The translations under genes and the position numbers were made by a program. From Microbulbifer halophilus (GTDB lineage: Bacteria; Pseudomonadota; Gammaproteobacteria; Pseudomonadales; Cellvibrionaceae), in the NCBI RefSeq assembly GCF_026183675.1, contig NZ_JAPIVK010000001.1, positions 1-64,000 on the forward strand: a stretch of DNA of 64,000 nt, written 5' to 3'. Below the pieces are notes generated by a model, which worked only from the letters and a program-made list of their open reading frames with translations, searched no databases and was not told the DNA's origin. Positions 19,375 through 35,209 of the stretch are shown here, in pieces. Each line of letters opens with the position of its first letter. Position 1 is the stretch's first letter.

Positions 19375-19538
19375 CTAGTGGTTCATGCGGTAAATTCGGT
19401 GACTCTAGCTCACAGCCACAGGTTCCAGGGCAAGGCGAAAAAGCGCAGGACTAGCAGCGCTAATTCAAGCTTTTTCAACGCAGCACTGGGGCCTGTGGCG
19501 AAGAGATAGTGTTACTGAATTTACCGCATGGACCGCTA
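19375..19538. repeat. 164-bp fold-back element, copy 1
   Basis: The element begins and ends with CTAG. Its terminal 29 bases (19375-19403 and 19510-19538) are inverted copies with four mismatches, and the inner part also pairs: CCACAGG with CCTGTGG and AAGGCGAAAAAGC with GCTTTTTCAACGC. The whole can fold as one long stem. The reverse complement of the element at 34273-34436 aligns to it over the core (CACAGCC, GCAAGGCGA, TCAACGC) at the same total length. It encodes no protein. Confidence 0.8.
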
Positions 19539-19640
19539 GTGGGCTGTACGCAAAATCCGGCAACTGATCACTTCGCCACGGCCCTCAGGGCCGCGTTGAA
19601 AACGATCGTCAAAGCCGTTTTCAAGCCGCGTCAGGCAGGC
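19535..19640. repeat. Partial fold-back element sharing a CTAG end with copy 1
   Basis: Starting at the CTAG that closes the first element, CTAGTGGGCTGTACGCAAAA resembles the end of the element at 34273-34436 (CTGGTGGGCCGTGCGCAAAG). An inner CGCGTTGAAAACG/CGTTTTCAAGCCGCG stem matches the family core. No right inverted end was found at the expected distance, so it looks truncated. The rest, up to about 19753, is non-coding. Confidence 0.5.
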
Positions 19641-34272: not shown

Positions 34273-34436
34273 CTGGTGGGCCGTGCGCAAAGTCTTATAA
34301 AAGCTCGCTGCGTCAAAGCGCCCAGCCCCGCGTTGAGAAAGGTCGAAATAGAACCACTATTCCAGTGCTTTCTCGCCTTGCTCCGGACGCTTTGGCTGTG
34401 CCCCTTTGTTACACAAATTCACGCACGGCCCACTAG
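34273..34436. repeat. 164-bp fold-back element, copy 2
   Basis: Inverted ends CTGGTGGGCCGTGCG (34273-34287) and CGCACGGCCCACTAG (34422-34436) enclose an interior that also folds (GCGTTGAGAAAGG with GCTTTCTCGCC). Its reverse complement aligns with the element at 19375-19538, which has the same length. The right-hand CTAG overlaps the stop codon of the next minus-strand gene. Confidence 0.8.
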
Positions 34437-35209
34437 TTGACTATCTCAAAAACGCAATCTTCAGCTCCCTCGCTGCGGCAATAGATCTCGCGCACGGTAA
34501 CCTGCCCCCCGACACCGGACTCATCCAATACTCCCCGCAGGAATCCACTGAAGAAATCGCCGGCACGACAGTGGCTGCCGGGCATACACAGAGGGTTGTT
34601 TTTTATGCGAAGGGAATTTTCTTTCAGGTCGGTGGACAACAGGTTGCGCAGGGCCGGCAGCGCAATCTGTTTCAACGCGCTGGGCAAATCCAGGCGCCCA
34701 CCCAGGGCGTAGTCCCTTTTGTAAACCCAGGAGCCCACCCGGCGTCCAGCAAACTCCATACTGGCGGCTTTCTGGCCATCGGGCAGCTTTTCGCGCAGGC
34801 CCAAAAGCCGGGGAAAAATCCGTGGGTATTCCCTCGCCAACCCCGGTAGCTCCGCTTCCACCTGCCCCACGGCCGGACCGCTGCTGCCACCTGCCGGCAG
34901 GTTGCTTGCCACCCGGGGAGGGCGCCTGGCCGAAGCGGGCCCGGCCACCGACCGGGACGGCTGTGTGGAGTGGGGTGAAACCTGGTGCTCGGACTCGAAA
35001 CTGAGCACCATCGGATGGGTCCCCAGTCGCTCCTCAAGCTCCAGTAGACGTTCCTCGCGTCCACTGACACGCAACCAGAGTTGAATACCGGTTTCCAGTG
35101 TCGACATCCGCTGGCGCAGCAATGTGAAGCCGCTCTGGATGATGACATTTCCCAATCCCCGCAGCAGTCCCTCGCGGCGGTCGGAAAGAACTGTGAATTC
35201 GACTTCCAT
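34433..35209 (-). CDS. Protein with ACT-like N-terminus and V4R-like C-terminal domain
   Basis: A 258-residue soluble protein of no recognised named family. Residues 1-75 (MEVEFTVLSDRREGLLRGLG) look like an ACT-type beta-alpha-beta fold. Residues 76-115 are a Ser/Pro/Arg-rich linker. Residues 115-258 resemble a V4R/heme-NO-binding-like small-molecule domain, ending with GDFFSGFLRGVLDESG, VREIYCRSEGAEDCVFEI. Four cysteines (208, 214, 244, 252) sit where V4R domains place metal ligands. The combination suggests a ligand-sensing protein, which is inference. The TAG stop is formed by the terminal CTAG of the fold-back element, so the original C-terminus may have been altered by its insertion. Confidence 0.65.
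   Translation of the reverse strand: MEVEFTVLSDRREGLLRGLGNVIIQSGFTLLRQRMSTLETGIQLWLRVSGREERLLELEERLGTHPMVLSFESEHQVSPHSTQPSRSVAGPASARRPPRVASNLPAGGSSGPAVGQVEAELPGLAREYPRIFPRLLGLREKLPDGQKAASMEFAGRRVGSWVYKRDYALGGRLDLPSALKQIALPALRNLLSTDLKENSLRIKNNPLCMPGSHCRAGDFFSGFLRGVLDESGVGGQVTVREIYCRSEGAEDCVFEIVN

Follow-up and report, generated by a model that had tools for sequence, protein, structure and literature searches.

The window, i.e., the whole stretch of 64,000 nucleotides analysed here, belongs to the genome of Microbulbifer halophilus (labelled G000; 4.66 Mb in 109 contigs) and carries two MITEs of different families that share a conserved hairpin core. The features considered below are the following:

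19375..19539, forward strand: complete MITE of family A, 165 bp including both CTAGs
19378..19536, forward strand: family A element proper, between the duplicated TA (19376-19377 and 19537-19538) within CTAG
19378..19400, forward strand: left terminal inverted repeat, inner limit approximate; it pairs with the right end and resembles the IS630 ends of the same genome
19409..19503, forward strand: conserved hairpin core of the first element, 92.7 bits with covariance model R1 and 92.2 with R2, its own sequence being in both models
19431..19436, forward strand: 5' loop motif CAAGGC, nearly invariant
19476..19481, forward strand: 3' loop motif CAACGC, nearly invariant
19514..19536, reverse strand: right terminal inverted repeat, inner limit approximate
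19536..19558, forward strand: possible relic (by eye) of the left end of another such element, abutting the first element
34273..34436, reverse strand: MITE of family B, 164 bp, one end decayed to CCAG
34308..34402, reverse strand: conserved hairpin core of the second element, 81.4 bits with R1 and 72.5 with R2, again included in both models

Both elements lie where a sequence-only reading of this DNA had placed them. That reading had taken them to be of exactly the same length, with CTAG at their inverted ends; the first measures 165 bp with both CTAGs, one base more than had been stated, against 164 bp for the second, and CTAG is found at both ends of the first element but has become CCAG at the far end of the second. 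The shared interior it had listed (CACAGCC, GCAAGGCGA and TCAACGC) occurs in that order in both, and the paired change from A-T to G-C that it had noticed in the central stem is real. When folded, the first element has a z score of -10.37 and the second of -4.53, and in neither case was any of 200 shuffled sequences as stable. The possible relic next to the first element reads CTAGTGGGCTGTACGCAAAAT and is, by eye, like the family B ends; a model search of the 64-kb window gave no core match after it.

On the minus strand, an open reading frame (34433-35209) ends exactly at the second element (window 34433-34436). The CTAG target of IS630 can coincide with the TAG stop of a gene, in which case the insertion recreates CTAG and the stop survives. 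In about 10 of 49 placements, the nearest gene end is at most 3 bases away from the element end.

Copies and families in the genome

The further copies that were to be expected in the genome exist in number: family A has 21 full-length copies at 96-100% of the first element, itself included, family B has 13 further near-full-length copies at 83-89% of the second, a third MITE family is also present, and model R1 finds 66 core matches in all at E<=0.01.

Several of these elements directly abut one another. Where neighbouring cores are separated by less than 250 bp, they are oriented head to tail in 5 of 5 cases in this genome (C33:124712/124872, C77:45319/45480, C36:42923/43084, C14:54801/54961 and C47:12631/12781) and in the 4 of 4 cases listed in G444, a genome of the Mariprofundus group, for which the fetched loci contain six further head-to-tail pairs (L240, L247, L249, L253, L299 and L300); locus L155 holds a pair of cores in opposite orientation. 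Since the close pairs of the M. halophilus genome join different families, the head-to-tail order is not a matter of simple duplication. Beyond 2 kb, the orientation of neighbouring cores is random in the two genomes taken together, with 41 same and 34 opposite.

An IS630-family partner and its target site

A search of the same genome with the MITE ends led to sites that carry a transposase gene in place of the core. This transposase belongs to the IS630 family (NF033545, 203 bits against a cut-off of 100; also DDE_3), and the ends of the IS630 element, as found on contigs C72 and C17, read TAGTGGGCC(A/G)TGCGG.., the right end agreeing at 24 of 28 bases with the consensus derived from one of the MITE families. 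Furthermore, of the 103 elements, among 147, in which both ends could be trimmed, 86 have flanks of the form C|TA...TA|G; the remainder of the 147 include copies with other ends. IS630 elements prefer a CTAG target and duplicate its TA. The window elements are thus MITEs whose ends are of the IS630 type and which duplicate the TA of a CTAG site, and CTAG itself is best read as a TA duplication within a CTAG target. Of the explanations proposed from the sequence, that of a MITE is borne out by these ends and flanks, but the suggested IS5-family partner is not supported, because the element that the search with these ends found in this genome encodes an IS630 transposase and the flanks are of the C|TA...TA|G type.

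In the M. halophilus genome a complete IS630 copy was not found, as one copy starts at a contig end and the others are in pieces, while another genome of the same genus holds an open IS630 copy of 295 codons. By eye, contig C72 (locus L147) is a patchwork of insertion sequences in which the IS630 fragment is accompanied by IS30-like and IS3-like frames. A clean empty site was not obtained from the five locus pairs of neighbouring species that were aligned, all of them too diverged, and the single neighbour that retains both flanks of the first window copy has an unrelated stretch between them. Carriage by phages or viruses found no support either, viral_contigs having given 0 exact matches, and the phage matches being weak and short, with a best E of 6.

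A conserved hairpin core

The interior of these MITEs is a hairpin core of about 95 nt, in which an asymmetric CAAGGC/CAACGC loop is placed between two covarying helices. A pattern written for this interior matched at least 86 stretches in named genomes, including those of Microbulbifer species, Ruminococcus and other gut MAGs, one Alistipes MAG, MAGs of the Mariprofundus group and Methylovulum. The interior letters of these stretches are alike by design of the pattern; their ends differ. Covariance model R1 was built from 16 diverse copies, 15 of them from the pattern and one, from a Shewanella plasmid, found by blastn; one of its rows (Mlit), present in R1 only, is two letters off the nearest fetched copy, and the other 15 are exact.

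The excess of paired substitutions that had been predicted for a larger alignment was indeed recovered. The 16 copies show 78 double-change cells against 25.5 in shuffles, a signal that is destroyed when the partner is slid by 1-3 columns, and the 31 distinct rows found by the model show 183 against 46.2, with both helices contributing. One of the 32 model-found rows, L154 (= L070), had already been in R1; the 31 are the distinct rows otherwise. The constancy of the loop in the pattern set and in 15 of the 16 rows of the first model is a product of their construction, and the models favour such matches. In the 31 rows, which were not chosen by exact pattern, though R1 favours such letters, the mean share of the modal letter is 0.96 in the ten loop columns vs 0.67 in the stem columns; 25 of the 31 rows have CAAGGC unchanged, and 26 have AACGC unchanged.

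In Rfam 15 no match to the core was obtained: the window and 8 loci gave only tRNAs at gathering scores, and the segment 19300-19600 gave two microRNA models far below theirs.

Other hosts, other ends

In the phylum to which Microbulbifer belongs, R1 finds the core at E<=1e-3 in 74 of 398 genomes, the M. halophilus genome included. In the phylum to which a Ruminococcus MAG belongs, the broader model R2 finds it at E<=1e-4 in 18 of 398 genomes, that MAG included; the E-values of the core models are rough. All of the 17 genomes chosen for holding the pattern have copies, from 1 to at least 150 per genome. The core is common, as sequence and as fold, to short palindromic repeats in other classes and in at least one other phylum.

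The ends of these repeats, and the duplications that flank them, are different from host to host. Of 23 Ruminococcus-type copies, 14 have the same 3 bp on both sides (TTA/TTA or TAA/TAA); re-paired flanks give a mean of 6.8, and none of 5000 re-pairings reaches 14. In G444, from the Mariprofundus group, flank repeats of 8 bp, 7 or more letters being alike, accompany 16 of 29 outer ends (expected 0.63) and, by the same measure, 7 of 37 copies that have the inner end only (expected 0.28). As ends differ between hosts and come with target duplications of 2, 3 and 8 bp, the core has been carried by no fewer than three chemistries of transposition.

In many of the G444 elements (L237-L302) the left end is doubled, GTAACTACTCAGC preceding GTAACTGCTCAGA by about 31 bases, and in these it is often at the outer left end that the 8-bp duplication starts. 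IS66 was tried as the partner of the 8-bp type in the Mariprofundus group and discarded, five of six genomes having none and the sixth a partial match. Loci L332, L333, L335, L337 and L338, from the phylum of the Ruminococcus MAG, have, by eye, ends like AGTACTCTGTAAC or CTAGTACCTTGT, some of them again at CTAG, with the same core and a different inner stem. Another case is L164 (genome G366), where a single core is found near the apparent GGM-rich end of groEL with no MITE ends evident by eye; this is perhaps a fixed, non-mobile use of the core.

The folded strand and the level of selection

Mismatches in the core stems are strongly asymmetric. G.T wobbles exceed A.C mismatches by 104 to 15 and by 58 to 12, or by 21 to 10 and 18 to 6 when counted by column, the rows being related and these counts consequently not independent; the other mismatches lean in the same way (G.A against C.T, 85 vs 7 and 36 vs 3). 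Arms beyond the core were compared through the consensus sequences of 53 lineages, which have 82 wobbles vs 33 A.C mismatches there, at an extension score of at least 12 and with some extensions running into host DNA. As each wobble is an A.C mismatch on the opposite strand, this excess identifies the folded strand as the one that reads CAAGGC...CAACGC.

Private mutations do not follow this rule, though the counts are small in both sets available. Among 44 Microbulbifer copies, all from the M. halophilus genome and its three families, the private changes in stems lead 5 times to a wobble, 11 times to A.C and 9 times to other mismatches, and the density of private changes per 1000 copy-sites is similar throughout, at 15.9 in the ends, 13.1 in the core stems, 11.7 in the rest of the core and 8.7 in the loop. 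The Mariprofundus set, which consists of the 74 of 84 rows, from the best-scoring places, that are at least 85% like the consensus, has 2 private changes to wobble, 4 to A.C and 6 to others; changes present in 2-4 copies number 4, 3 and 3, respectively, and those in at least 5 copies 3, 0 and 2. Selection on the folded form, which had been proposed from the two copies, is in this way backed by covariation and by a strand-specific wobble bias, both of them strong between lineages but absent from the few private mutations of single copies. Most simply read, single copies are free to decay, and the fold is retained by the lineages that are still moving.

Could the pairing have arisen without any function of the fold? 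The arms of a plain MITE might be paired only through template switching or conversion, the shared core then being the trace of a recent, functionless spread. Palindromic copies, chimaeras that combine families (L022 and L082, by eye) and single copies that look unconstrained would all suit this account. Nevertheless, the copying of one arm from the other yields Watson-Crick pairs and not a one-strand wobble excess, and it would erase the asymmetric loop, which in the model-found rows is far more constant than the stems; moreover, identical core letters are found between unrelated ends in different phyla. We regard this explanation as improbable.

A preference for G.U is usually a signature of RNA, and the bias seen here is a strong one of that type. 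The core could accordingly be an RNA module, i.e., a hairpin transcribed in the sense orientation that RNase III, or some other protein that binds RNA, cuts or protects; this would soften or exploit the effect of an insertion on host genes, and the insertions that fold well would be the ones retained. The precedents are pertinent: passages of a study of Correia elements describe transcripts that bind RNase III and are either cut or protected (PMC2649163), and passages of another source report that ERIC affects mRNA decay (PMC2229807). Against this proposal stand the private mutations, with no bias to wobble, and the placement of the cores. In 59 placements, with gene orientation taken from a home-made gene finder, the core is sense to both neighbours in 13 and antisense to both in 16, lies between convergent genes in 14 and between divergent ones in 6, overlaps an open reading frame in 5 and has no neighbour in 5. 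There is no clear orientation bias toward host genes among these placements, and such near-random orientation argues against a role in host transcripts. We consider the RNA module rather unlikely in this form. The two initial alternatives, a MITE and a family of structured RNAs, are not exclusive, this being a mobile element with a conserved fold that is shared well outside the genus.

Relation to known repeats

The nearest known relatives of the core are the Correia elements of Neisseria (CREE, NEMIS), in which CAAGGCG...GCAG[hairpin]GGCAAG...CAACGC stands in register with it. The Correia core used as query has 100% matches in two Neisseria gonorrhoeae records, and blastn aligns it with a Cupriavidus record (85% over 53 bases, E 1e-6) and with an Eleftheria record (81%, E 7e-4). 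R2, built without Correia, Cupriavidus or Eleftheria, gives 43.3 bits to the Cupriavidus sequence and 32.3 to that of Eleftheria. The 19.6 bits (E 3e-5) that it gives to Correia exceed by only 1.7 bits the highest-scoring match in the rest of the 64-kb window (17.9 bits, in an equally unfiltered search); this margin alone is small, and the argument rests in part on the Cupriavidus bridge. With R3, a model that includes Cupriavidus, Correia obtains 26.3 bits.

The passages of the Correia study give size classes of 104-108 and 153-157 bp and a TA target, the latter as in the window MITEs (PMC2649163). Correia elements differ in their 26-bp ends, in a shorter outer stem and in a long form with an IHF site; by eye, the 26-bp repeat is not at the ends of the window copies. 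The same passages describe this end repeat as confined to Neisseria and give the mobilising mechanism as undetermined (PMC2649163). Judged from their sequences, the window elements are related to Correia by their core and are not CREEs.

RUP, an IS630-family MITE of Streptococcus pneumoniae, is similar to the window MITEs in its IS630-like ends, TA duplication and mostly intergenic location, and differs from them in that they have a core conserved across phyla, whereas the passages on RUP report no functional motif (PMC2229807). ERIC (IRU) of the enterobacteria is, like the core elements, a long imperfect hairpin, in which (L325) AAGGCG adjoins the outer stem on its inner side and AACGCAG faces it, and is distinguished by an extra inner stem. 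The chance of such a motif placement is about 6e-5 by letter shuffles of the interior, with windows chosen afterwards. R1 gives ERIC 10.1 bits, with E 0.014 when 344 bases are searched and 0.063 when 1570 are, R2 7.8 bits and R3 8.7 bits, none of which is significant; ERIC is only a candidate relative. A 2024 review, in the passages concerned, treats Correia and ERIC as separate elements (PMC10969869).

The REP sequences (REP/BIME) deserve separate consideration. They are short hairpins whose mismatched loop has letters similar to those of the core loop, and this resemblance raises the idea of a REP-like hairpin on which a tyrosine transposase of the Y1 type (RAYT) acts, moving or cutting it. 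Proteins of the RAYT type (E<=1e-10) are present in 58 of 74 genomes with the core and in 126 of 324 without it, not corrected for kinship, and, outside the Mariprofundus group, in 20 of 29 core genomes against 109 of at most 307; these figures assume that both draws of 398 genomes are the same set, and the second uses an upper bound. Conversely, 16 of the 74 core genomes have no such protein at that threshold, and none of 20 stretches around RAYT-type genes, some of them short at contig ends, holds the core. In addition, core elements differ from REP in having inverted-repeat ends with target duplications, and Y1 enzymes are not known to leave duplications of this kind. We hold a RAYT origin to be very improbable.

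A possible explanation

Returning to MITEs with IS630-type ends, the copies of Microbulbifer would be moved by an IS630-family transposase acting in trans. The core may pass from one transposon system to another when its ends are replaced, and recombination within the core, as in the chimaeric copies L022 and L082 (by eye), would offer a route for such an exchange. In the weakest step of this proposal, the folded sense strand would aid propagation itself, whichever transposase does the cutting. Its most likely form would be a hairpin of single-stranded DNA, arising at replication forks or following the uptake of DNA, which would hold the two ends close to each other and whose loop may be recognised by a common host factor.

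Single-stranded DNA is preferred to RNA here because the copies look unconstrained and their orientation looks random. Most of the data would also be compatible with an RNA hairpin that has a transcript of its own, and it is the wobble excess, together with the RNase III biology described in the passages on Correia (PMC2649163), that keeps RNA under consideration.

Taken jointly, these elements would be IS630-type MITEs with a shared core between exchangeable ends, whose one-strand fold is kept by the propagating lineages and aids their propagation, a reading to which we assign a probability of about 0.55. A broader version, which we advance tentatively and at less than even odds, is that of a selfish single-strand hairpin module, older than any one transposon and independent of it, which repeatedly gains new ends and rides unrelated DDE transposases in several phyla, its fold doing a propagation job that does not depend on the transposase; Correia, and perhaps ERIC, would be two of its guises.

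Significance

MITEs and Correia elements are already known, and what appears to be new is a core present across phyla between interchangeable ends. Among the open-access papers listed, nothing in titles, beginnings of abstracts or passages describes such a core or joins Correia to repeats outside Neisseria, and those listed as containing the core letters are, by title, on unrelated subjects.

MITEs are usually described by their ends, which ties each family to one insertion sequence and one group of hosts. Here the middle is conserved and the ends change, the reverse of that description, and the core joins the Correia elements of Neisseria to repeats of Microbulbifer, Mariprofundus, Ruminococcus and others. 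The question of why many small bacterial repeats fold into long hairpins thereby becomes testable, and the core model allows such elements to be listed in any genome, and to ask what their loop binds.
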